NCBI RefSeq assembly: GCF_025141175.1
Contig: NZ_CP081155.1
Coordinates: 1,269,001-1,333,000, forward strand
Origin: Jannaschia sp. M317
GTDB taxonomy: Bacteria > Pseudomonadota > Alphaproteobacteria > Rhodobacterales > Rhodobacteraceae
DNA: 64,000 nucleotides
Direction: 5' to 3'
Shown: positions 27,510 through 63,912 of the stretch, one piece after another
Layout of the letters: each line of letters begins with the position of its first letter
Position numbering within the stretch: the first letter of the stretch is position 1
The notes under the pieces: model-generated
Told to the model about the DNA's origin: nothing
The model's database searches: none
Seen by the model: only the letters and a program-made list of their open reading frames with translations
Program-made: the position numbers and the translations under genes

Positions 27510-27524
27510 CATGAAAGGATGCCG

Positions 27525-30887: not shown

Positions 30888-30909
30888 GCCTTGACCGACC
30901 GATGATCGA

Positions 30910-30935
30910 GGGCGGCCCCGGTGGGCCGCCCTTTG
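30910..30935. terminator. Bidirectional terminator between the DUF892 gene and pgm
   Basis: GGGCGGCCC and GGGCCGCCC form a perfect nine-base stem with a CGGT loop and TTT on the plus side. It lies between two convergent stop codons and serves the DUF892 gene and probably the end of the glg-pgm operon. Confidence 0.8.
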
Positions 30936-30940
30936 TCGTC

Positions 30941-34650: not shown

Positions 34651-34651
34651 G

Positions 34652-36085: not shown

Positions 36086-37347
36086 CAGTCTTCCAATCGG
36101 TCGATCATCTTTTTGGTGATCAGGCAGATCCCGTTTTCGGTGCGTCGGAACCGTTTCGCGTCCAGGTCCGGGTCTTCGCCCACGACCAGGCCTTCGGGGA
36201 TATGCACCCCCCGGTCGATCACGACGTCCTTCAACCGTGCGTTTCGCCCGATGTCCACATAGGGCATGGCCACAACACCCGACAATTCCGCGTAGGAATG
36301 GGTTCGCACCCCGGTAAACAGCAAGCACCGGTCCAGCGTCGAGCCAGAGATGATGCAGCCCCCCGATACCATCGACGACACGGCATGCCCCTTACGGCCT
36401 GCTTCGTTGTGGATGAACTTGGCCGGGGCGGTCAGTTCCTGGTTGGTCCAGATCGGCCATTCGGTGTCGTAGAGGTCCAGCTCCGGCTCGAAATCGGTCA
36501 GGTCGATGTTGGCCTGCCAAAAGGCATCGACGGTGCCGACGTCACGCCAATAGGCCTTCTTTTCCAGCCCCGTCTTGACGCAAGAGCGGCCGAAGGGATG
36601 GGCGATGGCCTTGCCATTGGCGACGATGGCCGGAATGATGTCCTTGCCGAAATCGTTCTCGCTGTCGGGGTTGGCGTCGTCCGCGCGCAGCAGTTTTGCC
36701 AGGTACTCTGTCTCGAAGACGTAGATCCCCATCGAGGCCAGTGCCAGGTCCGGGTGGCCGGGCATCGCGGGCGGATCGGCGGGCTTTTCCATGAATTCGA
36801 TGATGTTGTCGTTCTCGTCGACGTGCATCACGCCAAAGGCGCGGGCCTCCATCCGGGGGACTTCGATGCAGCCCACCGTCACATCCGCGCCGCTATCGAC
36901 GTGGTGTTTGATCATCAGGGAATAGTCTTGCTTGTAGATGTGATCGCCCGCCAGGATCACGATGTACTTGGGACCGTAGCCTTCGATGATTTCCAGGTTC
37001 TGGGTCACGGCGTCGGCCGTGCCGCGATACCAGTTGTCGTTCCCCATCTGCTGCGAGGCAGGCAGAATATCGAGGCTCTCGTTGCGCTCGGCCCGGAAGA
37101 ACGACCAGCCGCGTTGCAGGTGACGAATCAGGGAATGCGCCTTGTACTGGGTGGCGACGGCGATCCGGCGGATGCCGGAGTTCACGGCGTTGGACAGGGG
37201 AAAGTCGATGATCCGGCTCTTGCCGCCGAAATACATCGCCGGTTTGGCCCGGATGTCCGTCAGCTCGTAAAGTCGGCTGCCGCGACCTCCTGCCAGAACG
37301 AAGGCCATGCTCTGCTGCGCCAGCCGCTGCGATTCCCTGTCGGTCAT
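36085..37347 (-). CDS. glgC: Glucose-1-phosphate adenylyltransferase
   Basis: GlgC makes ADP-glucose, the committed and normally allosterically controlled step of glycogen synthesis. The 420-residue protein has [22 protein letters not shown] (nucleotide and activator site), [22 protein letters not shown] and a left-handed beta-helix C-terminus. The ATG at 37347 follows GGAGGAG by five bases; an upstream TTG would add five residues. Overlaps glgA by one base. Confidence 0.95.
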
Positions 37348-37376
37348 GTCGTCTCCTCCCAAAGCGTCGTTCCCAT

Positions 37377-39563
37377 TTAGTCTAGTTCGAAAATCAGTGT
37401 GGACAGAGGCGGCACCGTGATCACGATGCTCTGCGCCCGGCCCGAGGCGGCGATGTCCTCGGACGACACGCCCCCCAGGTTGCCCTCACCGGTGCCGCCA
37501 TAGTCCAGCGCATCGGTGTTCATCCGCTCAGCCCAATGTCCGGCCTGGGGCACGCCGATGCGACGGCCCTCGCGCAGAACCGGGGTCATGTTGGTGACGA
37601 CCACGACCGGTTTCGTCCCGTCTGCCCCCAGCCGGGCCCAGACGAACAGCGATTCCTCGACCGCGCCGCCTTCGATCCATTCGAAGCCCTCGGGCTTGGT
37701 GTCCCGCTCGAACAGGGCGGGCACCGCGCGGTAGGTCGCGTTCAGGTCGCGGACGAGTGCCTGAATGCCCTGATGCTGCGGGATATCCAGCAGGTGCCAG
37801 TCGAGCGAGCCGTCGTGGTTCCATTCGCGCCCCTGCGCGAACTCGCAGCCCATGAACAACAGTTTCTTGCCCGGATGCCCCCACATGAACCCCAGATACG
37901 CCCGCAGGTTGGCGAATTTCGCGTCGCCATCGCCGGGCATCTTGTCCAGCAGGCTGCCCTTGCCGTGCACCACCTCGTCATGGCTGATCGGCAGGACGAA
38001 GTTTTCCGAAAAGGCGTAGTTCAGCCCGAAGGTGATCAACCCGTGGTGATACTTCCGGTTGATCGGGTCCTCTTCCATGTAGCGCAGGGTGTCGTTCATC
38101 CACCCCATGTTCCACTTGTAGCCAAAGCCCAGTCCGCCGCTGTCGACCATGCCGGACACGGCCGGAAAGGCGGTGGATTCCTCGGCGATGGTCACGACTC
38201 CGTCCAGCTGTCCGTAGACGGTGACATTGGTCGATTGCAAAAAGGCGATGGCTTCCAGGTTTTCGCGCCCGCCGTCCTTGTTGGGGATCCATTCGCCGTC
38301 CTTGCGGGAATAATCACGATACAGCATCGAGGCCACGGCATCGACGCGCAGACCGTCGATGTGATGTTCGTCCAACCAGTAAAGCGCGTTGGCCGTCAGA
38401 TAGTTCGACACCTCGGCACGGCCGTAGTTGAAGACCAGCGTGTTCCAATCCGGGTGGAACCCCTCGCGCCGGTCGGCATGTTCATAAAGCGGGGTGCCAT
38501 CCAGCCGGCCCAGGCCATGCGCGTCCTCCGGGAAATGGCCCGGCACCCAGTCCAGGATCAGGCCCAGCCCCGCGACATGGCACGCCTCTACGAAGGCGCG
38601 GAATTCGCGCAGGGTGCCGTGTCGGATGGTGGGCGCGAACAGGCCGACCGGCTGATAGCCCCAGGACCCGTCAAAGGGGAATTCGCTGATCGGCATCAGC
38701 TCGATATGGGTGAAACCCATATCCCTGGCGTAGCGCACCAGGTCGTCGGCCAGTTCCAGGTAGGACAGGGGGCGGTTGCCGTCTTCGGGGACGCGCTTCC
38801 AGGATCCGAGGTGCACCTCGTAGACGGTGACGGGGGCGTCGACGGCGATGGCCTGCCCGCGCTTGCCCATCCAGTCCGCATCGGCCCAGTCGAAGCCGTC
38901 CAGCGCACGCACGACCGACGCCGTGGCGGGCGGGTGCTCGGCCCCGAAACCGAAGGGATCCGCCTTTTGCGGCAGCAGGTTGCCGTCGGCCCCGATGATT
39001 TCGTATTTGTAATGCTCGCCCTCGCCGATACGAGGGACAAAGATTTCCCAGACACCGGTAGTGCCCCGTCCACGCATCACGTGGCGGCGTCCGTCCCAGG
39101 TGTTGAAGTCGCCCACAACGGACACCCGCTGTGCATTGGGCGCCCAGATCGCGAAATGGGTGCCCGCGACGCCCTCATGGGTCATCACATGTGCCCCCAG
39201 CACGCGCCACAGTTGCCGGTGAGAGCCTTCGCCGATCAGATGCTCGTCCAGGTCGCCCATCACCGGGCCAAAGGCATAGGTATCCTCGGTCTCCCAGGTG
39301 GTGTCGTCATGGGTGACGCGCAGCAGATAGCGGAACCGGGTCTTGCGGCGGGTGGCGGCCTCGAACAGACCGTCGCGGACCTCTTTCAGGGTAGCAATCC
39401 GGCGTTTCGTCTTGGCGTCGATGACATCGACCGCGCTGGCACCGGGCAGGAACGCCCGCACGACCAGCTTGCCGTTCACCTCATGCAGGCCAAGGCAGGA
39501 AAAGGGGTCAGCGAGCCGGCCCGTGGTGATCGCTTCGATCTCCGCATCCGTCAGTGTCGTCAT
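37377..39563 (-). CDS. glgB: 1,4-alpha-glucan branching enzyme
   Basis: The 728-residue enzyme makes the alpha-1,6 branches of glycogen. It has two N-terminal CBM48-like domains (~10-105 and ~125-215), [19 protein letters not shown] (nucleophile Asp), [11 protein letters not shown] (acid/base Glu), [13 protein letters not shown] and a C-terminal beta domain. Length is typical. It lies between glgP and glgC with gaps of 21 and 29 bases. Confidence 0.95.
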
Positions 39564-39584
39564 GATGACCCCCCATTTGCCGTC

Positions 39585-41969
39585 TTACAGCAGCGACTTT
39601 GCCCCCCAGATGTCGCGGGCGTAACCCGCAATCGTCCTGTCGGAGCTGAACCACCCCATCCGCGAGGTGTTCAACGCGGCCTTCCGCATCCATTCCTTCG
39701 GATCGCGGTAGTCCTTGTCAATCTGGCGCTGTGTTTCGAAATATCCATCGAAGTCTGGCGTCACGAGGAAATAGTCGTGGTCCCAAAGCATCCCGAGCAC
39801 GTCGCCGAACCGGTTGTCGCCGTCCGAGAAAACGCCGTTGGCGATCTGGCCCAACACCCGTTTCAGACGGGGTGACGCCTCGATCGCGGCGCGGGCATAG
39901 TCGGGCTCGGCGCGGTGGGCCTGCACTTCGGCGGCGGTCAGACCAAACAGATAGAAGTTCTCGGCCCCGACCTGTTCGCGGATCTCCACGTTCGCGCCAT
40001 CCAGGGTGCCGACGGTCAGCGCGCCGTTCAGCGACAGCTTCATGTTGCCGGTGCCCGAAGCTTCCTTGCCCGCGGTCGAGATCTGTTCGGACAGATCGGC
40101 GGCGGGGATCAGGCGTTCGGCCATCGACACGTTGTAGTTCTCGGGAAAGACCACCTGCAACCAGTCGCGCGTGACCGGGTCGGTGTTCACCTTGGCGGCG
40201 ACGCCGTTGATCAACTCGATGATCGACTTGGCCATGGCATAGCCGGGGGCGGCCTTGCCACCGAACAGCTTTACGCGCGGGGTCCAGTCGGCGCTGGGCG
40301 CATCGTGCATGTCGTTCCACAGCGCGATGGTTTCCAGGATGTTCAGAAGCTGACGCTTGTATTCGTGAATCCGCTTGATCTGGATGTCGAACATCGCGTC
40401 GGGGTTCAGGCGCGCGCCGTCGCGGTCCTTGAGCCATTGGGCCAGACGCACCTTGTTGGCCCGCTTGGCGGCGGCGAATTGATCCAGGAAACCGGCATCG
40501 GGGATATGCAGTTCCAGCTGAGTCAGCTGTTCCAGATCCGCGACCCATTCGTTTCCGATCGTCTCGGTGATCAGGCCCGACAACGCAGGGTTCGCCGAAT
40601 ACAGCCAGCGGCGCGGGGTGATCCCGTTGGTCTGGTTGATGATCCGGTCCGGATAGGCGCGGTGCAGGTCGTGGAACACGGTTTCCTTGACCAGGTCCGA
40701 GTGCAGAGCCGAGACGCCGTTGACCTTGTGAGCCAGCACAAAGGCCAGATCGCCCATCTTGACCTCGCCGTGCTCGATCAACTGGGTGCCGTTCTCGGCC
40801 GAGACGCGGTCGTGCAGGCCGCGGACAATGTCGTAGTGACGCGGCAGAATGCCCTGGAACATGCCCTCGGGCCAACGCTCCAACGCTTCGGGCAGCAGGG
40901 TGTGGTTGGTGTAGCCCAGGCAGGTCTGCGCCAGGTCGATCGCCGCGTCGAAGGTCAGGCCGTGCTCGTCTTCCAACAGGCGGATCAGCTCGGGCCCGGC
41001 CAGCGCGGGATGGGTGTCGTTGAGCTGAATGGCGACGTGATCGGCCAGGGTGGCGATCTCGTATCCTTCGGACTTGAACCGGCGCAGCAGGTCACGCAGC
41101 GAGGCGGAGGTAAAGAAATACTCCTGCTTCAGGCGCAGGGCCTTGCCCTCGTCGGTGGTGTCATCGGGATAGAGCACGCGGCTGAGCGTCCGGGCCAGCG
41201 CTTCGGGGGCAGAGGCCCCGATGTAGTCGCCGCGATTGAACGCCTCCAGGTCGAAATTCCGGTTCGGCAGCGCTGACCACAGGCGCAGCGTGTTCACCCA
41301 TTTGCCCTGCCAGCCGACGACGGGCGTGTCGTGCGCCTTGGCAATGACGGTGTCGGCGGGGTGCCAGACGGCGCGGGCCCCCTTGTAGTCCACATGCCCG
41401 CCAAAACCTATTTCATAGCGCGCCTCGGGACGCTCGAATTCCCAGACGTTGCGCTGACCCAGCCAGGTCTCGGCGCTTTCGATCTGCACGCCGTCGCGGA
41501 AATGCTGCTCGAACAGGCCGTGCTCATACCGGATGCCATAGCCATAGGCCGGGATGCCAAGGGTCGAAAGACTGTCGAGGAAACAGGCCGCAAGACGCCC
41601 CAACCCGCCGTTGCCCAACGCGGCATCGGGTTCCAGCGCGACCAGCTCGGCATAGTCCTGACCCAGGGATGCCATCGCCTCGCGGGCGATGTCTTCCAGC
41701 CCCAGGTTGAGGGTCACATCCTCGATCAGGCGCCCGATCAGGAACTCCATCGACAGGTAATAGACTCGCTTGCCCTGCTTGGCATAGGTCGCGCGCGTGC
41801 TTTCGAACCAGGGGTCCACGACCCGGTCGCGCACGGCCATCGACATGGCCAGACGCCAATCGTGGCGGGTCGCATGGTCGGGATCCTTCCCAAGCGAGGC
41901 TTTCAGGTGACGCTGGATCGCGTCGGCAAAAAGTTCGCTGGTGGGCAACTGAAACAGGTCCTTGGGCAC
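39585..41969 (-). CDS. glgP: Glycogen phosphorylase
   Basis: GlgP releases glucose-1-phosphate from glycogen ends. The 794-residue protein contains the pyridoxal-phosphate site EASGTGNMKLSLNGALTVGT, ALGNGGLGRLAACFLDS and IKRIHEYKRQLLN. I choose GTG 41969, preceded by GAGGA, which gives a VPKDLF start; the track-length frame from 42023 would add 18 residues with no family match. It is the first gene of the operon glgP-B-C-A-X-pgm; the promoter should lie in 41970-42164, where I can name no regulator site. Confidence 0.94.
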   Translation of the reverse strand: MPKDLFQLPTSELFADAIQRHLKASLGKDPDHATRHDWRLAMSMAVRDRVVDPWFESTRATYAKQGKRVYYLSMEFLIGRLIEDVTLNLGLEDIAREAMASLGQDYAELVALEPDAALGNGGLGRLAACFLDSLSTLGIPAYGYGIRYEHGLFEQHFRDGVQIESAETWLGQRNVWEFERPEARYEIGFGGHVDYKGARAVWHPADTVIAKAHDTPVVGWQGKWVNTLRLWSALPNRNFDLEAFNRGDYIGASAPEALARTLSRVLYPDDTTDEGKALRLKQEYFFTSASLRDLLRRFKSEGYEIATLADHVAIQLNDTHPALAGPELIRLLEDEHGLTFDAAIDLAQTCLGYTNHTLLPEALERWPEGMFQGILPRHYDIVRGLHDRVSAENGTQLIEHGEVKMGDLAFVLAHKVNGVSALHSDLVKETVFHDLHRAYPDRIINQTNGITPRRWLYSANPALSGLITETIGNEWVADLEQLTQLELHIPDAGFLDQFAAAKRANKVRLAQWLKDRDGARLNPDAMFDIQIKRIHEYKRQLLNILETIALWNDMHDAPSADWTPRVKLFGGKAAPGYAMAKSIIELINGVAAKVNTDPVTRDWLQVVFPENYNVSMAERLIPAADLSEQISTAGKEASGTGNMKLSLNGALTVGTLDGANVEIREQVGAENFYLFGLTAAEVQAHRAEPDYARAAIEASPRLKRVLGQIANGVFSDGDNRFGDVLGMLWDHDYFLVTPDFDGYFETQRQIDKDYRDPKEWMRKAALNTSRMGWFSSDRTIAGYARDIWGAKSLL

Positions 41970-42164
41970 GTGGAAAGGTCCTCGATGAATGCGTCCGAAT
42001 GGACAGGTGGGCGTTTTGCCCATTTCGGCAAGGGAGAAACACAGGAGTCACGCTGTGTCGCGACATCTCGCGCAGCGCAAGGGCACTGGACCCATGATTA
42101 GATGCAAATAGGGGACAATGGTTCCCCCATTCGACACAATCCCGCCCTGCTGATTGCGCAAGCC

Positions 42165-49975: not shown

Positions 49976-52900
49976 TCAGTAGTCCTTCTCGAAGAAGATG
50001 CCGAGGCTGCTTTCGCCGCTGGCACCGGTCGCGCCCCGCACCGTCAGGTTCGGCGTCAGATCAAGGTTGAGAGAGATCGTCGCGTCCCCGCTCTGGTCGA
50101 TTTCGACGTCGGTATAGACATTGTCCGAGATGTATTTGCCGGCCCGCACGGCGGTGTTGCCGTCGCTGTCGGTGGTCACGTCCAGATCGTCCAGTCCCGC
50201 ATTGCCGCGCAGCTTTTCCAACAATCCGCCCGATCCCCGACCCGCCAGAACGGCGATGGAATTGGCCAGTTGCAGCGCCTGCAAGGGCGACAGCTGGCTC
50301 AGGTCGCGGCCAAAGAAGATCTGCGCCAGGATTTCCTCCTGCGGGACGTCCGGGCTGCTGCCAAAGCTGACCTCGATGCTGTCCGCCGGTCCCTCGACCG
50401 CGATGGAGGCGGTCAGGGCATCGGTCTCGGTGATGGCCACCAGCCGGATGTAGGGGATCAGATCACCCTGAAAGCTGATCGTGCCCTCGTCCAGATCGAA
50501 CCGCTGTTGCAGAATGTCGAGACGCCCGCGCACCAGCTCGAAGGCGCCCGCCGTGACCGGCGCATTCGTGGTGCCCGTCACTCGCAAGGATCCCCCCAGT
50601 TCCGCGTCCAGGCCGCGCCCGCGCACAAAGATGCGACCGGGTGCATCGACCCTCAGGTCCAGCCCGAAACCCGGGCCGGAGCTGGCCTGCTTCTCGGCGC
50701 GCACCGCCTTTGCGTCCTGGCCTGCCCGCGCCAGGGTGCGCTGCACTGGGCGCGGGGTGGCCAGATGGTCGATGGGGGGCAGGTCGCCGATGGCCGTCAA
50801 CCCAGAGGAGGGGACAGCGATCTCTGCGCCGTCCAACAGCACCTGCCCCGAAATCACCGCCCCGCCCGTCAGCGGCCCGGTCACGGCGACATCGCCCGAG
50901 ACATTGGCAGTATAGAGGGTCGGATCCTCTAGCGTGACGGCGAATTGCGCCCGCAGGTTTGCATTGAACGGGGCCGACAGGTCGACAGGCCCGCTGACCT
51001 GGACCTGACCGCCGGTTTGCAACGTCGCCTGTGCGTCCACCACTGCGCGCCCGTTCTGCAACGTTACGGTCGCCACCAGCGGCTCCAGCCCGTTGCGCAG
51101 GGTGGGCAGGCTGACCGCGCCGTTGGTGGTGCGGATCGTGCCGGTCACCGAGTCGAGCGCGGGCGGTCCGGCCACGCGCAGATCGAAACTGGCGGTGCCG
51201 CCCAACCGGCGCGGGGCCACGGCTGCATTTGCCAGACCCAGCGGCGCGCTGCCGCTGACCGACAGGGTCAGCGTCGCATCCGTGGCCACCGTGCCTGCGA
51301 CCTGCGCCGCCGTGCCCGCAGGCCCGGTCAGCGACAGGTCGAGACGGTAATCCGACCCCGGCTGCGTCACCCGCCCGCTGACCCGCAGCGGGCCGGAAAT
51401 GTCGGGCACCAGAGGCGAGATATCGGGCACCGCAAATGCCACATCCACGTCCACCGGCCCACCAAAGACGACACCCGACACGTCGAGATCGGCCCCGAAC
51501 GGTCCCGACGCGTCCACATCCGCGCGCCAGACCCCGCCGCGTTCTGTCGCGGTCAGGTCCAGGTTCAGGGGGCCGCGCAGGGCAGGCGACAACGTGGCGG
51601 CGTTGGGCATCCGCAGCGCCGCCGTCACCTCCGCCCCACTGTCCGGCAGGCGGGCGTTCGCCGTGACCCGTGCGCCCAACGGGCCGCTCGCCTCCACGTC
51701 TGCCGACCAGACGCCGCCGCGCTGTCGCGCCTCGGCCTCGACCGTCAGGGCACCGCGCAATTGCGGTGCGATCCGCGTGGCGTCCGGGATCCGTGCGGTC
51801 AGCGTCACCTCGGGCCCCGCGTCCGGCAGGCGGGCCGAGGCGTTCAGCGTCGCCGCATAGGGGCCGGTTCCGTCCAGATCGACGCGCCAGCCGTCTTCTG
51901 CCTGCACGGCCATGCCCGACAGGTCCAGCCCGCCCGGCACACCCGCGGCAAAAGCGGCCAGGCGCGGCACATCCAGCGTGAAATCCACCGCCAGCGGCGT
52001 GTCGGTCAACACCGTCTCGACCGTGGCGCGCGTGCCTTCGGGGCCGCGCGCGCGGGCCTCAAGGGTCCATTCCTCGCCCGCCCGCGCCAACAGGGCGTCC
52101 AGGCTGAGCGTCCCCTCCACCTGCGGCACAAGGACCTGCAGGCGCGGCACCGTCGCTGCCATCTCCAACCGGGGGGCGGGGCCTGTCACAGGGCCGCGCA
52201 GACGCAAGGTGACACCCTCGGGCGCGGTGACCTGCGTGTCCGTGACCAGGGCCGCGCCTTCCTGTGTGATCTTGCCCGACAATTCGACCGGTCCCGCCAG
52301 CGCGGGCAGCGCGGCGAGCGCCGGGACCGGTGCGGTGACGTCCGGCAGGCGTGCCGAATAGGTGATGGTTACCGCGTCGCCCGTGACCGGTCCGGCGACC
52401 TCGGCCACCAATCCCCAGGGTCCGGCCAGATTGGCGTCCACCGACCAGATCCCGTCTTCGGCAAAGGCCCGCCCCTCGGCGGTCAGCGCCCCCGGCACGC
52501 CGTCGACGAAGGCCCCGATTTCGGGGACCGACAGGGTGAAATCCAGGTCCGGCGTAGGCCCCGTCAGCCGCCCGGCGGCCGTGGCGGACACCCCCTGCGG
52601 TGCCGTGATCTCCGCGTTGCCGGCCCAGGCACCGGCGTCATCCTCGCTCAGCGCAACGCGGGCGCTGAGCGGGCCGGTCAGACGCGGATCGACGACCCCG
52701 CCGTCCGCCACCGTCAGGTCCAGCGTGGCCTGACCCGTCTGCCCCTCGGTCCGGGCGGGGGCGTCTTCGGCCAGGATCCGTGCGGTGCCCGACAGCGCCA
52801 CTTGCGGATTTTCCAGGGACAGAGCGTCCAGATAGGTGCCCGTCTCATCGCGCCGCGCCGCCAGCGACAGCGCGGTGCGCCCCTGTAGCAACCCGTCTGC

Positions 52901-54523
52901 CTGGGCGATGCCGGTGCGCAGCCCCTCTGCCGCGCCCCGCGCCGACAGATCAAAAGCGCCGCCAACCGGGGTCAGATCGCCCGATACCTCCAAAGCCGCC
53001 GCGCCGCCAAGGTCCAGCCCGGTCAGGGCCGACAGCCGCGACAAGGCCCCCACCTCGGCCCGAAGATCCAGTGTCACCGGCAAGGCGCGCCCGTCCAGTG
53101 CATAATCCACCGCGCCCGATGCCGTCAGCGCGGGGCCCTCCAGCGCCAGATCCGTGATCCGCACCGGCCCGCCTTCGGCCCAGCCGACCTGTGCGCCCAG
53201 GGTGACCTGCGCGCCGATCGCATCCGCCAGCGCCGGGTCGATCCAGCCGATCCCGTCCAGCGCCGCCTCGATCAATCCGTTGGCCCCGATGACGGACCCG
53301 TCGCTGCGATCCACGGTGCCGCGCGCGGTCACGTACCCGCGGTCCAGCGTCAGGGCCGGGTGGTCCAGTGCCTCGACCGACAGATCCAGCAGCCAATCTT
53401 CGCCCGCCTGAGCATCGTGACGCAGGGCGAAGTCCGCCCCGGCCAACGAGATCGCATCCGCCGTCGGCAACAGGACCCGCGTTCCATCCGCCGAGGCAAT
53501 GCGCCCGGTCACGTCCAGCGCGCGGGGCCAGCCGTCGGCCCCGACCTCTGCCGTGCCGCCAAGCGTCAGGGCCTGGGTCGAGATGTCCAGCTCCTGCAAG
53601 AGGGTGCCACCGGCATCCAGCGCCACGCCCACGACCCGCAGGCCCACGTCATCGCCAAAGAACGGGCGATAGCGCGGGGCCAGCAAGGCGGTCAGGTCGC
53701 CGCCCAGGTCGGCGGCAAAGCGGCGGCCGTCCTCGACCCCGGCCAGTGTCACCTGTCCCGACAACCGGTCCGCCCCGTCCGAGGCCACCGCGATATCGGC
53801 GGCGAAATCGTCCAGTGGCCCGGTTCCCGTCACCGTCAGCTCGATCGCGGGCGCACCCGGCAGTTGCAGCAGGCCGGACGCCAGCCCGCCCTCGGCCTCG
53901 CGCACGTCCAGATCGACCGACAGGATCTTGGTCTCGGCGTCGAATCCGGCTTCGATGTCGAAGGTGCCCGCGACCCCGTCCAGCCGTTCGCCGGTCAGAT
54001 CCACCTGGCCCGATCCATCGGCCAGCTGCGCGGTCGCCTCCAGCCGTAGCGACAGGGCCTGCCCCAGGATCGCGGCGCCCAGGTCGATGCGTTCTGCCCG
54101 GATCAAACCGATATCGACGGAAACCGGCAGGTTCGGTAACGAAAACCCGCTCGCCCCGGCCTCTGGCAGGGCCTCGACCCCTTCGGGCGGCAGGGGCGTG
54201 CGTTCGACCGCGATCAGCGCCGCGGTCAACTGCTCCACCTCCAGCCGTCCGCGCAGCAGGGCAGAACGGTTCCAGTCCAGCACCACCTCCTCCAGCCGCA
54301 GCCAGGGGCCCGCGTCGTCCGAGATCGTCAGAACGTCCAGCGAGGCTTCGGATGACAGGGCCCCTTCAAAGCCGTCGATCCGCACCGACAGGCCGGGCGC
54401 GCTCAGGTTGTCTTCGATCAGGGCGGTCAGAAAGCTGCGATCCCGCTCCTCGGCGGCGTCCTGGGCGGCGGCGGGCAGGGCGAGTGTCAGCGCCAGCGTC
54501 AGCGCAAGGGGAAGCGCGCGCAT
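49976..54523 (-). CDS. tamB: TamB, AsmA-like lipid-bridge protein
   Basis: TamB spans the periplasm and, with TamA, helps outer-membrane assembly; TamB-type proteins also carry phospholipids to the outer membrane. The 1515-residue protein has an N-terminal signal/anchor, long beta-repeat regions, and the conserved TamB C-terminal domain (ILAQIFFGRDLSQLSPLQALQLA and ending LGIFFEKDY). In residues ~800-1060 about four modules repeat at an exact 180-bp period (plus-strand 52067, 51887, 51707, 51527): a GGVWxADVxASGPxGA-type segment then ARLPDxGxEVT. This suggests tandem duplication. Its ATG shares a base with the tamA stop. Confidence 0.93.
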   Translation of the reverse strand: MRALPLALTLALTLALPAAAQDAAEERDRSFLTALIEDNLSAPGLSVRIDGFEGALSSEASLDVLTISDDAGPWLRLEEVVLDWNRSALLRGRLEVEQLTAALIAVERTPLPPEGVEALPEAGASGFSLPNLPVSVDIGLIRAERIDLGAAILGQALSLRLEATAQLADGSGQVDLTGERLDGVAGTFDIEAGFDAETKILSVDLDVREAEGGLASGLLQLPGAPAIELTVTGTGPLDDFAADIAVASDGADRLSGQVTLAGVEDGRRFAADLGGDLTALLAPRYRPFFGDDVGLRVVGVALDAGGTLLQELDISTQALTLGGTAEVGADGWPRALDVTGRIASADGTRVLLPTADAISLAGADFALRHDAQAGEDWLLDLSVEALDHPALTLDRGYVTARGTVDRSDGSVIGANGLIEAALDGIGWIDPALADAIGAQVTLGAQVGWAEGGPVRITDLALEGPALTASGAVDYALDGRALPVTLDLRAEVGALSRLSALTGLDLGGAAALEVSGDLTPVGGAFDLSARGAAEGLRTGIAQADGLLQGRTALSLAARRDETGTYLDALSLENPQVALSGTARILAEDAPARTEGQTGQATLDLTVADGGVVDPRLTGPLSARVALSEDDAGAWAGNAEITAPQGVSATAAGRLTGPTPDLDFTLSVPEIGAFVDGVPGALTAEGRAFAEDGIWSVDANLAGPWGLVAEVAGPVTGDAVTITYSARLPDVTAPVPALAALPALAGPVELSGKITQEGAALVTDTQVTAPEGVTLRLRGPVTGPAPRLEMAATVPRLQVLVPQVEGTLSLDALLARAGEEWTLEARARGPEGTRATVETVLTDTPLAVDFTLDVPRLAAFAAGVPGGLDLSGMAVQAEDGWRVDLDGTGPYAATLNASARLPDAGPEVTLTARIPDATRIAPQLRGALTVEAEARQRGGVWSADVEASGPLGARVTANARLPDSGAEVTAALRMPNAATLSPALRGPLNLDLTATERGGVWRADVDASGPFGADLDVSGVVFGGPVDVDVAFAVPDISPLVPDISGPLRVSGRVTQPGSDYRLDLSLTGPAGTAAQVAGTVATDATLTLSVSGSAPLGLANAAVAPRRLGGTASFDLRVAGPPALDSVTGTIRTTNGAVSLPTLRNGLEPLVATVTLQNGRAVVDAQATLQTGGQVQVSGPVDLSAPFNANLRAQFAVTLEDPTLYTANVSGDVAVTGPLTGGAVISGQVLLDGAEIAVPSSGLTAIGDLPPIDHLATPRPVQRTLARAGQDAKAVRAEKQASSGPGFGLDLRVDAPGRIFVRGRGLDAELGGSLRVTGTTNAPVTAGAFELVRGRLDILQQRFDLDEGTISFQGDLIPYIRLVAITETDALTASIAVEGPADSIEVSFGSSPDVPQEEILAQIFFGRDLSQLSPLQALQLANSIAVLAGRGSGGLLEKLRGNAGLDDLDVTTDSDGNTAVRAGKYISDNVYTDVEIDQSGDATISLNLDLTPNLTVRGATGASGESSLGIFFEKDY

Positions 54524-56319
54524 CAGAACGACTGCCCGATGCCGATGTAGACCTCGACACCGCTGTTGGTGCCCGGCCCCGATACCGGCAGGCCCAGGTC
54601 CACGCGGATCGGCCCGATCCCGGTCTGATACCGCACGCCAAGGCCCGCGCCGACATGGGTTTCCCCGTCGGAGAACCCGCTCTCCGAGCTGACGCGCCCG
54701 GCATCCACAAAGCCCACGATGCCGATGCTGTCGGTCACCTGCTGGCGAATTTCGGTCGACAATCCGACAAAGGACCGGCCGCCCACCTCGCGCCCGTTGG
54801 GCAGGGTCACGCCCAGCGACTGGAACGGCTGACCCCGCACGGTGCCGCCGCCACCGGAATAGAACAGATCCGTGGCGGGCGTATCCGCCAGATCCGGCCC
54901 GACGACGGATCCCAGTTGCAGCCGCGCGGCCAGAACGGTCCGATCCTCTGCACCAAACCCCTGATAGCCGCGCAGGTCGGCGGTGAACCGCAGCCCGCTG
55001 CCCGCCGTCTCGAAGCCGTGGAAGGGCGACAGGCCTGCCTCGACGTAATAGCCGTCAGACGGGTTCAAGGGGTCGTTGCGCCGGTCATACTGCGCCTCGA
55101 GCGGGAGGGAGACGATCTCGAAGTTGCGGGTGCCGAAGGCGTCGGTGATCCGGGATTTCTCGAACGACAGACCATAGGAATACTGAAACTCGTCGCTCAC
55201 GATCCGCCGGGCACCCACCACCAGTTCCGCCCGGTCGGAGGAGAATTCCGGCTGGTCCAGGCTTTCGATTTCGCCAGTGATGAACAGGTCGGTTTCCGGG
55301 TTGAAGGTGGCGGGGCGATTATAGCTCAGCCCGAGGCGATAATCCTCGCCGCCGCTGTCACCGCCGATACCCTCGACCTCGCCTTCCACGCGAAAGCTGT
55401 CGGCGTATCCCGTCAGGTTCCGGTGCAGCCAGAACGCCGACAGGCCCAGCCCCTCGGTCGTCCCCAGCTCTGCGCCAAAGCCGATCCGGCGGGGCAGGCG
55501 CTCTACGATCTGCACCTCCATCGGCAGGGTCTGGCCCGGCGCGATCTCCTCCGCTTCGACGATGGACACCGACCGGAAGGCACCGGTCCGCTGCAGGCGC
55601 CGCGCCGATTGCCGCACCTCTTCGGGGTCGAACACATGCCCCGGCCGCAGATCGGCGATACGCGAAATCTGCCGCGTCTTGACGGCCTCGTTGCCTGCGA
55701 TGGTCAGCGGACCGTACGTCAGCCGTGGTCCCGGGGCCAGCGTCAGCCGCGCATCCAGCCGGTCGACGTCGTGGCGCGCGGTGATCTGCTGGTCAGCCAA
55801 AGCCGCCTTGGCATGGCCGCGACCACGCCAGGCGTCGATCCCCTCGGCGGTCGCCTGCCGCAGGATATCCGTTCCCGCCTGCGCTCCGCTGGCAAAGCCT
55901 TCGGGCGGGCGGATGCCGTCGGGCAGGGGGCCGACCGTCGCCGTTCCAAACAGGAATACGGGCCCCGGCTGCACCGAAATCGACGCCGTCCCGACCGAGC
56001 CGGTCGTCCCGATCGTCGGCAGCGCGGCGGCCTCGACCCCGTCCAGCGTGATGGAAATCGCGGGCCCAAAGTGGCCGGCTTCGAACAGGACGGCCAACAG
56101 GCGCGAATAATCTGCCTGCGCGGCAGCGACCAGATCGCGGCGCACCTGCGTGCCCTCGTCCACCGCCTGCGCCAGCAAGGACGCGGCGCGCAGCGTTTCC
56201 GCCAGGTCTTCGTCGGTTGAAAGGTTCAGCCGCAATTCGGCGGCAGGGGCCGTCAAGGGGATCGACAGGGTCGCAAGGCACAGGGCCAGTCGCGCCAAGG
56301 CAAGGTTCCGAAAACGCAT
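54523..56319 (-). CDS. tamA: TamA, Omp85-family outer-membrane protein
   Basis: The 598-residue protein has a signal peptide (LCLATLSIPLTAPAAA-like, cut near residue 27), POTRA domains (to ~residue 270) and a C-terminal 16-strand barrel ending GVEVYIGIGQSF with terminal phenylalanine, as in Omp85 proteins. With TamB it forms the translocation and assembly module. ATG 56319 follows GGGGAG; the longer frame adds a non-signal extension. It is the first gene of the tamA-tamB-pqiA1-pqiA2-pqiB-pqiC operon. Confidence 0.92.
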   Translation of the reverse strand: MRFRNLALARLALCLATLSIPLTAPAAELRLNLSTDEDLAETLRAASLLAQAVDEGTQVRRDLVAAAQADYSRLLAVLFEAGHFGPAISITLDGVEAAALPTIGTTGSVGTASISVQPGPVFLFGTATVGPLPDGIRPPEGFASGAQAGTDILRQATAEGIDAWRGRGHAKAALADQQITARHDVDRLDARLTLAPGPRLTYGPLTIAGNEAVKTRQISRIADLRPGHVFDPEEVRQSARRLQRTGAFRSVSIVEAEEIAPGQTLPMEVQIVERLPRRIGFGAELGTTEGLGLSAFWLHRNLTGYADSFRVEGEVEGIGGDSGGEDYRLGLSYNRPATFNPETDLFITGEIESLDQPEFSSDRAELVVGARRIVSDEFQYSYGLSFEKSRITDAFGTRNFEIVSLPLEAQYDRRNDPLNPSDGYYVEAGLSPFHGFETAGSGLRFTADLRGYQGFGAEDRTVLAARLQLGSVVGPDLADTPATDLFYSGGGGTVRGQPFQSLGVTLPNGREVGGRSFVGLSTEIRQQVTDSIGIVGFVDAGRVSSESGFSDGETHVGAGLGVRYQTGIGPIRVDLGLPVSGPGTNSGVEVYIGIGQSF

Positions 56320-56509
56320 TTCCACTCCCCAGATGGCCCCGCATGGCAGTTCGGCAGGCCAAAGGACCACCGGGGCGTGCGGGCCCCGCACGGCACCGCT
56401 GTGCAAACAGCTAGCACCACGCCCCCCCTTCGGAAAGGCAAAGGCCGTCAATGTTGTGTGACCGGCGCCAGGCGGCGCGGCGCGTCCCTTGGAAATTCAG
56501 AGCGCGCAA

Positions 56510-58294: not shown

Positions 58295-59659
58295 TCACGC
58301 CGAGGCCGACCGGTTGTTGGACTGATCGCTCTCGATCTGATCGAGCAGCCGGTTGATGCCGCGTGCCAGAACTGCGCCGTGGGCATCCAGCCCCAGCACA
58401 TCGATGCGCCGATCCGCATCACCCCGCGCCGCCGCCGCCAGCACATCATCCAATCTCTCGTCGACGTAGATCCGGATGTCCTCGGCCGCAGCGGCGGACA
58501 TGCGCCGCTCGATCTGGGCCGCGCGCAAGGCAGACAAGGCTTCGGAGATCTGGTTCAGATCCGCCTGAGAGCAGGGCGGCACACGCGTGCCCACCGGATC
58601 CTGCGACATCGCGTGGATCGACGCGATGATGGACCCGATCGACTGATCCACCCGGTGCAGCGTCAGGTAGGCCAGCGATCCGAAGATCATGAACAACCCC
58701 GCCAGGAACGTCAGGTCCCGGACAAACGCGTGCCAAAGCGCCGTGGTTTCGGCGTCCAGCGCCTCGTTGAGGCGTACGTTGCCTTCCACCTCCAGGGTGC
58801 GCAGGGAATCGATCAACCGGTCGGCGATGGTGAACCAGGCCTGGGGCGACGCGGGCAGGCGGGTGTCGCGCCCCGTCGGATCCAGCAGCGCCGCACGGGC
58901 GGCCAGAAATTTCGTTGTCTCTGGTGCGCGTGCCCAAAGATCGGTGGACACCCGCGCTTCCTCGTCGGCGACCATGCGAAAGCCCGCAAGCCAGGTGTCG
59001 CGGATCAATTGCTGATCCTGCAATTCCCGGCGCAAAGCTTCGGGCACCGCCCGACCGGCGGCCAGGTTGGCGATGATCGCGCCGCCCATGGCGCGTTCCA
59101 GCCCGACCGCATCCTTGGCCACCATCAGCGCAGAGGCGTTGCGCATCAACAGGGCCAGCCGCCCGGACCAGGCCGATTCCGCAGCACGGGCGACGGCACC
59201 GATGATGCGGGTGTTCTGCTCCGTCATTGCATCGCGATAGGCCCGTGGGATCAGGTCCCCGGCGTCTACCGTTTCCCGATGGGTGTCCAGCCAGTGCTGC
59301 AGGACCGCAAACCGCCCCCCGGACGTCATGACGTCACGGTGCATCTCGTTTCCATTGCTCAACATGACGCGGGATAGGACCGTGTCCGTGGCCAGGCGCT
59401 GCACCTCCAGCGCGTCGCGCAGGTCTTCGTCTCGTGCCGTCAGCCAGCTGTAGGTCAGCCCGCGTTCCCGCTGCATCTCGTGGACCAGGGCCCCCATGTT
59501 CTGCGTCAGCTGCAAAAGATCGCGGTCCCGCGACAGGATGCCGTGTTCCTGCTTCTGAGCCATCAGGGACGACAGGGAAAACAACAGCGCCACCGCGAAG
59601 CCCGAGAAAAAGACGACAGCCATCGATTGGCTGACCGTGAGAGTGCGAAGTCGCATCAT
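58295..59659 (-). CDS. NIT-domain membrane sensor with no output domain
   Basis: The 454-residue protein has a first membrane helix (~12-34), a periplasmic NIT-type sensor (~45-290; EMQRERGLTYSWL is its typical start), a second helix (~318-338), then a HAMP-like segment and a helical tail with IYVDERLDDVLAAAARGDADRRI. It ends there: no histidine kinase, cyclase or methyl-accepting domain is present. NIT domains are linked to nitrate/nitrite sensing. It may signal through a partner, or be a shortened receptor. The ATG follows AAGGG. The 197 bp behind the gene (58098-58294) holds nothing I can name. Confidence 0.8.
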   Translation of the reverse strand: MMRLRTLTVSQSMAVVFFSGFAVALLFSLSSLMAQKQEHGILSRDRDLLQLTQNMGALVHEMQRERGLTYSWLTARDEDLRDALEVQRLATDTVLSRVMLSNGNEMHRDVMTSGGRFAVLQHWLDTHRETVDAGDLIPRAYRDAMTEQNTRIIGAVARAAESAWSGRLALLMRNASALMVAKDAVGLERAMGGAIIANLAAGRAVPEALRRELQDQQLIRDTWLAGFRMVADEEARVSTDLWARAPETTKFLAARAALLDPTGRDTRLPASPQAWFTIADRLIDSLRTLEVEGNVRLNEALDAETTALWHAFVRDLTFLAGLFMIFGSLAYLTLHRVDQSIGSIIASIHAMSQDPVGTRVPPCSQADLNQISEALSALRAAQIERRMSAAAAEDIRIYVDERLDDVLAAAARGDADRRIDVLGLDAHGAVLARGINRLLDQIESDQSNNRSASA

Positions 59660-59810
59660 GTCGGATCCCTTGCAGTTCCGCCCGGATATGTGGCGAAGAG
59701 GGTTGCGATTCCGTTAGCAACCCCTTTCCAAACCCTTACCGCCGCCGAATTTTCCACTTCCGTTCCCATAGGCCATTGCGCCCGGCGTTCTGCCGGGACA
59801 GGGTTGTGAC

Positions 59811-61238
59811 ATGACAAATGACGCAACTTTCGACGAAATGCGGGCCGCCGACGGCAAGACCCGTGCCGCCTACGCCGAGTTCGCCCATTGGTTTGACGAA
59901 GAGGACCCCGCGCGCCTGCGCGCCAAGGCCCGCGAGGCCGAGGACGCCTTTCGCCTGACCGGCATCACCTTCAACGTCTACGGCGAGAAGGAGGCTGGCG
60001 AACGGCTGATCCCCTTCGACATCATTCCGCGCATCATCGCGGCGCGGGAATGGGCCAAGCTGTCCAAGGGCATCGAACAGCGGGTTCGCGCGCTCAACGC
60101 CTTTCTGCACGACATCTATCACCGGCAGGAAATCATCCGCGCGGGCGTCCTGCCGGCGTCTATGATTGCCAAGAACGAAGCCTTCCTGCCGCAAATGATC
60201 GGCGTCGATCCGCCGGGCGACATCTATACCCACATCGTGGGCATCGACCTGGTGCGCACCGGGCCGGATCAGTTCTACGTCCTCGAAGACAACGCGCGCA
60301 CGCCGTCCGGTGTCAGCTACATGCTGGAAAACCGGGAAACGATGCTGGCGATGTTCCCGGAGCTGTTCTCGCGCAACAAGGTGCAGCGGGTGTCGAACTA
60401 TCCGCGCAACCTGCACGAAAGCCTGTCGGCCTGCGCGCCGACAAAATGCACCGATACCCCCGTGGTTGCGGTGTTGACGCCCGGCATCCACAATTCGGCC
60501 TATTATGAGCATTCCTTCCTGGCCGACCAGATGGGGGCCGAGCTGGTCGAGGGGCATGACCTGCGGGTCGTCGATGGCCGTGTCGCCATGCGCACCACGC
60601 GCGGGTACAAGGCGATCGACGTGATCTATCGCCGGGTCGACGACGATTACCTCGACCCGCTGACCTTCAACGCGGACTCGATGCTGGGGGTGCCCGGCAT
60701 TTTCGACGTCTACCGCTCTGGCGGGATCACCATCGCCAATGCGCCCGGAACCGGGGTCAGCGACGACAAGGCGATCTACAGCTACATGCCCGAGATCGTG
60801 AAGTTCTATACCGGCGAAAAGGCCCTGCTGGAAAACGTCCCGACCTGGCGTTGTTCGGATTCGGACGCATTGGCCCATGTGCTCGACAACCTCCAGGATC
60901 TCGTCGTCAAAGAGGTCCACGGCTCTGGCGGGTATGGCATGTTGATCGGGCCGACCGCGTCCAAGAAGGACATCGCCGCCTTCCGCAAAAAGCTGGAATC
61001 GAAGCCGTCGAACTACATCGCGCAGCCGACGCTGGCGCTGTCGACCGTTCCGATCTTTGCCAAGAAGGGGCTGGCTCCGCGTCATGTGGATCTGCGGCCC
61101 TTCGTGCTGGTGTCCCCCAATGGGATCGACATCACGCCGGGTGGCCTGACGCGCGTGGCGCTCAAGAAAGGGTCGCTTGTCGTGAATTCCTCGCAGGGCG
61201 GGGGCACCAAGGACACTTGGGTGCTGGAGGACGACTGA
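59811..61238 (+). CDS. Circularly permuted ATP-grasp protein
   Basis: The 475-residue protein belongs to the circularly permuted type 2 ATP-grasp group (DUF404/DUF407): GVDPPGDIYTHIVGIDLVRT, YVLEDNARTPSGVSYMLENR, VIYRRVDDDYLDPL and KEVHGSGGYGML are its conserved blocks. ATP-grasp enzymes of this group are predicted to form amide or peptide bonds. It is the first of a four-gene cluster with an alpha-E protein, a transglutaminase and Anbu; its stop shares a base with the next ATG (TGATG). Confidence 0.9.
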   Translation: MTNDATFDEMRAADGKTRAAYAEFAHWFDEEDPARLRAKAREAEDAFRLTGITFNVYGEKEAGERLIPFDIIPRIIAAREWAKLSKGIEQRVRALNAFLHDIYHRQEIIRAGVLPASMIAKNEAFLPQMIGVDPPGDIYTHIVGIDLVRTGPDQFYVLEDNARTPSGVSYMLENRETMLAMFPELFSRNKVQRVSNYPRNLHESLSACAPTKCTDTPVVAVLTPGIHNSAYYEHSFLADQMGAELVEGHDLRVVDGRVAMRTTRGYKAIDVIYRRVDDDYLDPLTFNADSMLGVPGIFDVYRSGGITIANAPGTGVSDDKAIYSYMPEIVKFYTGEKALLENVPTWRCSDSDALAHVLDNLQDLVVKEVHGSGGYGMLIGPTASKKDIAAFRKKLESKPSNYIAQPTLALSTVPIFAKKGLAPRHVDLRPFVLVSPNGIDITPGGLTRVALKKGSLVVNSSQGGGTKDTWVLEDD

Positions 61239-62179
61239 TGCTGGGAAAAACCGCAGGTGGCCTCTACTGGATGTTCCGTTACCTGGAGCGGACCGAGAAT
61301 ATCGCCCGCCTGGTCGAAACCGGCGAGCGTATGGCCCTGACCAGGCCCGATGCCGACGACAGCGAGTGGGGGTCCATCCTGTCCACCGCCGGCGTGCGCT
61401 GGGCCTATGACGCCCACCACGACGAGGTGACGGGCGAGGCGGTGGTCGATTTTCTGCTGCGCTCCACCGACAATCCGTCTTCGGTCATGAGTTGTATCGA
61501 GAACGCGCGCATGAACGCCCGCACCGTGCGCACCGGCCTCACGCGCGAGGTCTGGGAAGCGGTGAACGAATGCTGGATGTCCCTGCGCGAGGCGTTGCAG
61601 CGCAAGGTGCCGCCCCGCGATCTGCCTCGGGTGCTGGGTCTGATAAGGGCGCGTTCGGCCTTTGTGCGCGGTGCGTTGCATGGCACGATGTTGCGCAACG
61701 ACATCTACGATTTCGCCCGTCTTGGAACCTTCATCGAACGCGCCGACGCCACTGCGCGCCTGCTGGATGTGAAGTATTTCGTTCTGTTGCCCTCTATCGC
61801 CGGTGTCGGCTCCCGGCTGGACAATGCTCAGTGGGAAATGATCCTGCGCGCGCTGTCCGCCGAAGGCCCGTTCCGCACCGTGCACGGCAATACCCGTGGT
61901 GCGTCCGCCATCGCGGAATTCCTCATTCTCGACGGGCGCATGCCGCGATCGCTCGCGTTCTGCTACAAGAAGATCGGCGACAACCTTGGCTATCTCGAAT
62001 CCGACTACGGCATCCGACAGCCGTCCCACGATCTGTCCCATGAGATTTGTCACATGTTGGAACAGCTCTCCATCGAGGACATCTTCGATCAGGGTCTGCA
62101 CCAGTTCCTTCAGGTCTTCCTGAAGCGTAATCACGCGCTGGGCCAACAGATCGAACAAGATTACAGGTTCATCAAATGA
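61238..62179 (+). CDS. Alpha-E domain protein (DUF403)
   Basis: The 313-residue, mainly helical protein has the alpha-E start MLGKTAGGLYWMFRYLERTEN (first 20 residues diagnostic), NARTVRTGLTREVWEAVNE and GTFIERADATARLLDVKY. Its biochemical role is unknown; it nearly always travels with the permuted ATP-grasp protein. Both overlaps (TGATG upstream, ATGA downstream) show tight coupling, so it probably forms a complex with its neighbours (inference). Confidence 0.9.
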   Translation: MLGKTAGGLYWMFRYLERTENIARLVETGERMALTRPDADDSEWGSILSTAGVRWAYDAHHDEVTGEAVVDFLLRSTDNPSSVMSCIENARMNARTVRTGLTREVWEAVNECWMSLREALQRKVPPRDLPRVLGLIRARSAFVRGALHGTMLRNDIYDFARLGTFIERADATARLLDVKYFVLLPSIAGVGSRLDNAQWEMILRALSAEGPFRTVHGNTRGASAIAEFLILDGRMPRSLAFCYKKIGDNLGYLESDYGIRQPSHDLSHEICHMLEQLSIEDIFDQGLHQFLQVFLKRNHALGQQIEQDYRFIK

Positions 62180-63033
62180 CCGCCCGACTGCACATCCGCC
62201 ACGTCACGACCTATCGCTACGACGCGCCCGTGGACTACGGGTTGCAGCAGTTGCGACTGACGCCCAAGCCTCGCAATGGCCAGCACATCGTCGACTGGAA
62301 CACCCGTGTACGCGGGGGGCGGGAAGAATTGAGTTTCGACGACAGCCACGCCAACCACGTTCAGCTCGTGTCGATCGACGCGGGGGCCACCGAGGTGGAA
62401 ATCACCGCCGAGGGCGTGATCGAGATGTCCGACGAAACCGGCGTGATCGGCAGTCACGCGGGCTACATGCCGCTGTGGATGTTCCTGCGTCCCACGGACC
62501 TGACCCGGCGCGGGCAGGGCACCATCGGCCTGGCACGGGACGTTCGGCCGATGGAAAACCAGTTGGAGCAGCTGCACGCGCTGTCGGCCGCGATCCGCGA
62601 GACGGTGACCTACGACACCAATGGCATGGACGTCGCCCGCAGCGCCGAAGAGGCGATCGCCGATGGCCATGGGGTCTGCCAGGATCATGCCCATATCTTT
62701 GTCACGGCGGCCCGCCTTCTGGATTGCCCCGCGCGCTATGTCTCCGGCTACCTGAAGATGAACGACCGTGACGACCAGGAGGCGACCCATGCCTGGGCAG
62801 AGGCCCACGTCGAGGGTCTGGGATGGGTTGGCTTCGACGTGTCGAACGGCATCTCGCCGGACAAACGGTATGTCCGTGTCGCCACCGGTCTCGACTATGC
62901 CGACGCGGCACCCATCTCGGGCATCCGCCAAGGTGCCGGGTTGGAACAGATGTCGGTCAGCGTCCATGTCGCCGAAGCCAAGGCACAGGCCCAGCAGCAG
63001 CAATCCGGGGGGCAGGACCAGGCGCAGAGTTGA
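62176..63033 (+). CDS. Transglutaminase-like protein with bacterial N-terminal domain
   Basis: The 285-residue protein has an N-terminal beta domain (TARLHIRHVTTYRYDAPV) and a papain-like transglutaminase core with the catalytic Cys in GHGVCQDHAHIF, His in THAWAEAHVEG and Asp in GFDVSNG. Members act as peptidases or transfer amide groups. The C-terminus is glutamine-rich. Its ATG overlaps the alpha-E stop. In this cluster it may cut or remodel a product of the ATP-grasp ligase. Confidence 0.9.
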   Translation: MTARLHIRHVTTYRYDAPVDYGLQQLRLTPKPRNGQHIVDWNTRVRGGREELSFDDSHANHVQLVSIDAGATEVEITAEGVIEMSDETGVIGSHAGYMPLWMFLRPTDLTRRGQGTIGLARDVRPMENQLEQLHALSAAIRETVTYDTNGMDVARSAEEAIADGHGVCQDHAHIFVTAARLLDCPARYVSGYLKMNDRDDQEATHAWAEAHVEGLGWVGFDVSNGISPDKRYVRVATGLDYADAAPISGIRQGAGLEQMSVSVHVAEAKAQAQQQQSGGQDQAQS

Positions 63034-63042
63034 CCGGCCGAG

Positions 63043-63094
63043 TTTACCCCAAAACGTGAAACAGCTTATCCAGACGTGCTGCAAAATGTGAAAA
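63043..63094. promoter_or_regulatory. Second copy of the paired CAAWAYGTGAAA motif
   Basis: The first half-site is identical over 22 bases to that at 18141. The second, GCAAAATGTGAAAA, begins its match at 63082, exactly 32 bp after the first match at 63050, the same spacing as in the other copy. It lies between the transglutaminase stop and the Anbu start, 84-135 bp upstream of the latter. Confidence 0.5.
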
Positions 63095-63177
63095 ATCCGC
63101 AGCAACGGATGCGCCGCCCGTTGACATGGGCGGTCCCCGCGACAACCTCTGACGGACCTGAAACCGGAACTGCATCC

Positions 63178-63912
63178 ATGACCTACTGCGTTGGCCTTCA
63201 CCTCGACCGTGGCCTCGTCTTCATGTCCGACACCCGCACCAACGCGGGCGTCGACAACATCTCTACCTTCCGCAAACAGTTCACCTGGGAGGTGGAGGGC
63301 GACCGGGCCATGGTGTTGATGACGGCGGGAAATCTGGCCACCACCCAGGCGGTCGTCTCGCTTCTGGATGAACGCAACCTGGCTGCGCCCGACCGTGCGC
63401 CCAGCCTTCTGACGGTGCCGTCGATGTTCCAGGCCGCCCGCCTGATCGGCCAGACCCTCAAGGAAGTCATCGCCGACAGTCGCGACGACGGCGGTCCCAC
63501 CGCGTCCAAGGCCTTTGGCGCGACGATGATCCTCGGCGGTCAGATCCAGGGCGGCCCGCCCCGGCTCTATATGATCTACCCGGAAGGGAATTTCGTGGAA
63601 GCTCAGGAGGATACACCGTTTTTCCAGATCGGAGAGACCAAGTACGGCCGCCCCATTCTGGTCCGCGCCTACGACCCGGAGATGCCCTTCGACCAAGCCG
63701 TCAAGCTGCTGATGGTCAGCTTCGATTCGACGATTCGGGCCAACCTGTCGGTCAGCACCCCGCTTGACCTGCAGGTGATCGAGACCGATGCATTCTGTCT
63801 GGGCAAGAGTCGCCGCATCGAAGATGCTGACCCGGATTGGCGCGCGGTGTCGGATGGGTGGTCCGATGCGTTGCGACAGGCCTTCCACAGCCTGCCCGAC
63901 GTCGACTTCTGA
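63178..63912 (+). CDS. Proteasome-like peptidase Anbu
   Basis: The 244-residue protein begins MTYCVGLHLDRGLVFMSDTRTN, the start of Anbu (ancestral beta-subunit) proteins, in which Thr2 becomes the N-terminal nucleophile after Met removal. Later blocks such as GETKYGRPILVRAYDP are typical. Anbu is related to HslV and proteasome beta subunits, but has no known partner ATPase. The ATG at 63178 is needed for Thr2; the longer frame from 63076 would bury it. A weak GGAA precedes it. It follows the ATP-grasp, alpha-E and transglutaminase genes after a 144-bp gap that holds the paired motif. Confidence 0.92.
   Translation: MTYCVGLHLDRGLVFMSDTRTNAGVDNISTFRKQFTWEVEGDRAMVLMTAGNLATTQAVVSLLDERNLAAPDRAPSLLTVPSMFQAARLIGQTLKEVIADSRDDGGPTASKAFGATMILGGQIQGGPPRLYMIYPEGNFVEAQEDTPFFQIGETKYGRPILVRAYDPEMPFDQAVKLLMVSFDSTIRANLSVSTPLDLQVIETDAFCLGKSRRIEDADPDWRAVSDGWSDALRQAFHSLPDVDF

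Follow-up and report, generated by a model that had tools for sequence, protein, structure and literature searches.

The four-gene Anbu operon of Jannaschia sp. M317: a possible amide ligation and hydrolysis module with links to nitrogen starvation

The structures of Anbu, a proteasome-like protein, have been solved, yet it has no known substrate or activity, and the question raised by the locus described here is what Anbu and the three genes preceding it do together. The locus is located at positions 59811–63912 of a 64,000-nucleotide stretch of Jannaschia sp. M317 DNA (the window; contig NZ_CP081155.1), and encodes an ATP-grasp enzyme, an Alpha-E protein, a transglutaminase-fold protein (TG) and Anbu. 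We give about even chances to the reading that the cluster is a cytosolic amide ligation and hydrolysis module tied, in many relatives at least, to nitrogen starvation. The features of the locus are:

59811..61238, + strand: ATP-grasp enzyme of the circularly permuted type 2, 475 amino acids, with a glutathione-synthetase-like amide ligase fold (Pfam PF14403 and PF04174; PDB 3n6x)
61238..62179, + strand: Alpha-E protein, 313 amino acids, all helical, with an internal duplication and two ER motifs (Pfam PF04168, hhalign, AlphaFold2)
62176..63033, + strand: TG, a transglutaminase-fold cysteine protein of 285 amino acids with the triad C168/H205/D221, likely a hydrolase (PF08379 and PF01841; PDB 3isr)
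63034..63177, + strand: intergenic gap of 144 bp between TG and Anbu (sequence)
63178..63912, + strand: Anbu, a proteasome-beta-like N-terminal nucleophile (Ntn) hydrolase of 244 amino acids with Thr1/Asp17/Lys32 (Pfam, PDB, residue check)
59660..59810, + strand: upstream region common to the operon and a divergent NIT gene (sequence)

An intact copy of a known operon

The order and spacing of the four genes given in an earlier note on this DNA agree exactly with the open reading frames and the sequence: the ATP-grasp and Alpha-E genes overlap by 1 bp (TGATG, at 61238), the Alpha-E and TG genes by 4 bp (ATGA, at 62176), and the gap before Anbu follows. Its family identities are likewise borne out by Pfam, where the matches of all four proteins exceed the curated cut-offs, namely CP_ATPgrasp_2 (E 2e-165), the Alpha-E domain (E 6e-87), Bact_transglu_N and Transglut_core for TG (E 2e-20 and 2e-21) and Proteasome for Anbu (E 4e-8), and by the PDB, where the ATP-grasp enzyme matches 3n6x (E 3e-190) and TG matches 3isr (E 3e-13). 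The top PDB match of the Anbu protein is the designed Anbu 5loy (E 7e-87), with deposited Anbu proteins next, and Alpha-E gave no match in the PDB search up to E 1. Alpha-E is an internal duplication whose halves align with each other (hhalign, E 4e-17), and its AlphaFold2 model has a pLDDT of 89.8. A Thr codon stands directly after the Anbu start codon, so that threonine becomes residue 1 once the methionine is removed. The S1 pocket of the Anbu-1 subtype is given in a passage of PMC5666114 as T20, F30, T48, L52 and S55; counted from Thr1, the first four are identical in the window protein and a threonine conservatively replaces S55. By eye none of the four proteins has a signal-peptide-like N-terminus, and we therefore assume a cytosolic system. 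The window's own 3.94-Mb genome has a single match to each of the four families. No PADLOC defence model was matched at E 0.001 by the four window proteins, by a large TG of another locus (L086) or by the peptidase of L113.

The Anbu operon, consisting of the ATP-grasp, Alpha-E, transglutaminase and Anbu genes, was described in 2008–2009 (Valas and Bourne 2008, Iyer 2009, as quoted in passages of PMC5666114 and PMC6376114) and studied in 2017–2018 (PMC5666114, PMC6376114). The window has the same four families, adjacent, in the same order and on one strand, with the catalytic residues present, and shows no difference from what is described there; it is an ordinary, intact and plain member of this known but unexplained operon. 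Loss of catalytic residues in relatives, which would have spoken against the earlier note, was not seen: the TG Cys, His and Asp are each present in 87 of 87 proteins, and in Anbu residue 1 is Thr in 110 of 111 and Ser in one, with Asp17 and Lys32 in all 111.

Nested dependence and exchange of hydrolases

In a sample of 149 genomes from the order (all the listed ones belong to the window's family), Anbu and Alpha-E are both present in 106, Anbu is alone in one and neither is found in 42 (p 2e-36; the genomes are not independent, and here as below p values ignore relatedness). Per family the counts are 107 for Anbu, 106 for Alpha-E, 105 for ATP-grasp and 107 for Bact_transglu_N, and every Alpha-E genome (106/106) also has Anbu. 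One genome (G109) is without an ATP-grasp match because its contig ends within Alpha-E, and another (G004) has TG only. Both states occur within at least nine genera, as judged from the 20 of the 42 absent genomes that are listed, indicating that gain or loss has been repeated. The co-occurrence that the earlier note took from comparative genomics, where the operon is published, thus recurs here, and the co-conservation it proposed to examine gives no refutation. That the four genes are mere neighbours with separate roles could be argued from an Anbu gene unlinked to the others in three genomes (G052, G229, G312), but this is set against all-or-none presence across the sample and its mixed genera, and we regard it as extremely improbable.

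Among 319 genomes of the phylum, Anbu is found in 123, Alpha-E in 181, DUF2126 in 99 and Bact_transglu_N in 178 (177 above the cut-off). Anbu is accompanied by Alpha-E in 121 of its 123 genomes (the exceptions are G240 and G381) and DUF2126, the mark of a large TG fused to an amidoligase, in all 99 of its genomes, but Anbu is lacking from 60 of the 181 Alpha-E genomes. The dependence is nested: Anbu and the large TG go almost without exception with Alpha-E, and not conversely. With Anbu, the Alpha-E genomes have both a large and a small TG in 62 cases, a small TG in 52, a large TG in one and neither in 6; without Anbu, the corresponding numbers are 35, 24 and 1 for both, small only and large only, where a small TG means, by a coarse rule, Bact_transglu_N matches beyond those explained by the DUF2126 protein.

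The hydrolases can also be seen to change places. The distance from Alpha-E to Anbu is below 200 bp in five genomes of the order (G084, G086, G126, G138, G139), and all five encode a TG protein of 1090–1124 amino acids divergently beside the ATP-grasp gene (L086–L090); that of L086 was confirmed to contain Bact_transglu_N, Transglut_core and DUF2126, and the divergent arrangement is also present at L032 and L081. At three loci outside the class with no TG in reach (L109, L113, L124) a zinc peptidase, Peptidase_Mx, adjoins the other genes. Relatives recognized by similarity are located at L062, at L061, which has a TG too, and beside the large TG at L105 and at L101 from the window's genus, and in G306 the peptidase lies between Anbu and Alpha-E. 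In a survey of 80 hand-chosen genomes it was found in 9, namely in 4 of the 6 Anbu genomes without Bact_transglu_N, in 5 of 48 others (46 with Alpha-E together with G240 and G381) and in none of the 26 without Alpha-E, among them G106 (p 0.005 and 0.03); in G217 its gene and those of the ligase pair are widely separated. No TG was found in the DNA examined of L012, L013 and L021, the first two being short contigs. An extra TG-like protein is encoded immediately upstream of Anbu at L091 (10648–11430) and L092 (10207–10986), and the one at L091 was confirmed to contain Transglut_core, with no match to Bact_transglu_N.

These arrangements suggest that the ligase pair is the core and hydrolysis an exchangeable step. 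They also bear on whether TG could act as a genuine transglutaminase, crosslinking proteins or freeing ammonia from glutamine, with its substrates supplied by Anbu. Such a role in nitrogen starvation has been suggested in print (quoted in a passage of PMC6376114), and the Cys-His-Asp triad is intact, but a zinc peptidase, of which acyl transfer would not be expected, substitutes in several loci, and we consider the idea improbable. Since the hydrolases replace one another, the zinc peptidase included, hydrolysis is a more probable activity of the TG protein than crosslinking.

Some variants of the genes were noted besides. A divergent Anbu with 31% identity is located away from the genome's Alpha-E at L116 (G164) and may be another subtype. 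In the Psychrobacter loci an open reading frame of 630–832 amino acids for ATP-grasp stands ahead of TG and Anbu; at L010 (6844–9114) it is fused to a divergent Alpha-E, as confirmed by Pfam in this one of the Psychrobacter loci.

Promoters and possible nitrogen control

Passages in the literature connect the operon with nitrogen. Anbu increases in nitrogen-limited P. putida (as quoted in PMC5666114, PMC6376114 and PMC8665760), the domains of the operon follow urea metabolism in marine metagenomes (PMC3597751), and a related, Anbu-free cluster in B. cenocepacia is strongly NtrC-dependent (PMC5491218). The latter, I35_5080-83, likewise groups ATP-grasp (DUF404/407), Alpha-E (DUF403) and TG genes, and differs, according to the same source, by its large TG and by the absence of Anbu from the cluster. 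Control by NtrC and σ54 was measured there, whereas in the relatives studied here it is suggested by motifs.

A -24/-12 (σ54) site, defined as at least 10 of 12 matches within 350 bp upstream, precedes 28 of 101 ATP-grasp genes as against 11 of 758 control genes (p 1e-19). Cupriavidus contributes 13 of the 28; when it is excluded 15 of 88 remain (p 2e-9), and after clustering at 80% identity, which gives 30 clusters, 7.7 are found with about 0.4 expected. In the window's order the site is absent from all 40 promoters examined, of 105 ATP-grasp promoters, and one Jannaschia locus (L004) shows a weak site. This absence is expected if NtrC in the order works with RpoD, as R. capsulatus NtrC does according to a passage of PMC7294313.

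De novo motif discovery in the same 40 promoters yielded a 17-bp dyad with the consensus TGCCTAAAAAACAGGCA. It scores at least 12 bits in 32 of them, mostly 82–148 bp upstream, and in 3 of 98 controls, the former count being partly circular as the matrix was built from 22 sites and applied leave-one-out to these promoters. For an independent test we used the PII genes of the window's genome and of 14 genomes in which the site is strong, glnB and glnK being separated by a short sequence motif: the dyad is present at 12 of 14 glnB (that of L202 was not parsed) and 12 of 14 glnK genes (L217 counts as neither of the two), with 3 of 98 in controls, and the glnB site of G082 is the classic TGCAC-N7-GTGCA box. 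Exact matches in genome-wide scans of 12 genomes number 20, spread over 9 of the 12, as compared with 2 for the reversed pattern; five are in ATP-grasp promoters, one is before glnK, others are near genes that by eye resemble xdhA or encode amino-acid and peptide transporters, and some are inside coding sequence. The pattern suggests that the dyad is a putative NtrC box.

In the window's genome the dyad scores 19.4 at glnB and 17.8 at glnK, and within the 300–350 bp upstream of the ATP-grasp gene neither an NtrC box nor a σ54 promoter was found. The promoter data suggest that nitrogen control is a trait of many relatives, from which it might extend to the window copy.

The divergent gene adjoining the operon (58295–59659) encodes a NIT (nitrate/nitrite sensing) domain; it has the same position at L104, of the same genus, with 45% identity, and was unmatched in the other loci searched. 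Farther away in the window are genes for glycogen metabolism (27519–42023: alpha-amylase families, phosphoglucomutase, branching enzyme, phosphorylase) and adjacent TamB and TamA/Omp85-type genes (49976–56451).

A putative ligase and its hydrolases

The E. coli glutathionylspermidine synthetase/amidase makes and cuts one amide with an ATP-grasp ligase and an amidase, its hydrolase being a fused cysteine amidase domain and not of the Ntn or TG fold. It is the nearest working precedent: its ligase fold (PDB 2io7-2iob) matches the window's ATP-grasp enzyme, and it has no Alpha-E. We infer amide chemistry in this organism, the role of Alpha-E and a substrate common to ligase and hydrolases. The ATP-grasp enzyme would use ATP to activate a carboxylate that is then joined to an amine, and phosphate is released from ATP by the protein (in a passage of PMC6376114). 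Alpha-E, its near-constant partner, would most likely be a subunit holding the acceptor or the product, and the TG-fold protein and Anbu would cut the product, whether peptide, isopeptide or peptide-tagged protein, the ligase pair forming the core and the hydrolases being exchangeable.

The earlier note had summarized the logic as making an amide, cutting an amide and degrading in a barrel. Making and cutting stand as the likeliest logic; degradation specifically in a barrel does not, since Anbu is dispensable in the Alpha-E genomes and other hydrolases substitute for it. The barrel is not closed either. Anbu shares the Ntn fold, the Thr1 nucleophile and the catalytic residues with the 20S proteasome beta subunit and HslV, but unlike these it forms a split, open ring or lock-washer, is not known to have an AAA+ partner and has shown no activity, according to passages of PMC5666114 and PMC6376114. 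No AAA+ unfoldase is present among the annotated neighbours in the window, where the search covered the neighbours of the locus and not the rest of the genome.

Two versions of the amide reading differ in the substrate. In one, the ligase pair would add a tag, either a peptide or an amino acid, to proteins, TG would trim or remove it and Anbu would degrade the tagged proteins, like pupylation, as proposed previously (quoted in PMC6376114). Anbu resembles the proteasome, inhibitors of which, epoxomicin among them, bind at its Thr1 (PMC5666114), and protein recycling by cells occurs in nitrogen starvation. However, no unfoldase is apparent, because no family from outside the system occurs in more than 4 of 30 representative loci, few of whose neighbours are annotated; a third of the Alpha-E genomes (60/181) do without Anbu; and the published work, in the passages of PMC6376114, saw no complex. 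The protein modification of the earlier note is also not seen, as nothing in the analysis or in the literature passages shows any protein modified, and we find this version rather unlikely. In the other, non-ribosomal small-peptide metabolism, the ligase pair would make a soluble peptide or gamma-glutamyl-type amide, which would serve as a store of nitrogen, a solute or a signal and be broken down again by the hydrolases. The ATP-grasp fold is nearest to glutathione, glutathionylspermidine and trypanothione synthetases, which are small-molecule ligases; hydrolases of unrelated fold would interchange easily on a small substrate; and relatives have NtrC-like boxes. A dodecameric split ring (PMC5666114) is large for a small-peptide hydrolase, and no product is known, so that we hold this version tentatively, as a doubtful but not negligible candidate.

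Several points weigh against an amide module under nitrogen control. It has no known substrate or product, and the earlier note had rightly called both substrate and purpose unsettled: in the passages of PMC5666114 and PMC6376114 Anbu cleaved no substrate tried and showed no peptidase activity, and in those of PMC6376114 no complex was detected among the operon proteins and neither Glu nor Gln nor Anbu increased phosphate release by ATP-grasp. One genome (G106, locus L093) has Anbu with no ATP-grasp, Alpha-E or Bact_transglu_N detectable genome-wide; Anbu is unlinked to its partners in the three genomes named above, in two of which (G229, G312) Peptidase_Mx is also far from the ligase genes; G179 and G364, of one family, have Anbu and Alpha-E with neither a Bact_transglu_N TG nor Peptidase_Mx; and both Anbu and DUF2126 are missing from 24 of the 181 Alpha-E genomes. 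At the window promoter the dyad scores 8.2 bits, less than the 10.1 that marks the 95th percentile of the controls, and the best σ54 match is 5/12; just 3 of 8 genus relatives (L102 counted with L003) have a dyad of at least 12 bits. Three exact dyads are located about 100–180 bp upstream of genes that by eye are UvrC-like (L173, L181, L183), which does not fit NtrC.

The Anbu operon may also be one of several forms taken by a broader nitrogen-starvation system, in which a constant ligase pair would be combined with any of four recruited hydrolase types: small TG, TG fused to the DUF2126 amidoligase, Anbu and the zinc Peptidase_Mx. We put this forward as possible, if somewhat less than probable. 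The most useful additions made here are the nested dependence, the hydrolase exchange and the promoter evidence, which together ease testing of the Anbu substrate. If the wider system exists, Anbu would be a dedicated hydrolase of the ligase product and would ignore standard proteasome substrates, and with a nitrogen-starvation ligase and interchangeable hydrolases as its partners the failed proteasome-peptide assays would be expected. NtrC control would then make nitrogen-starved Rhodobacterales the place to seek the substrate, which might be found in genetically tractable members of the order as the product of ATP-grasp and Alpha-E under nitrogen limitation.
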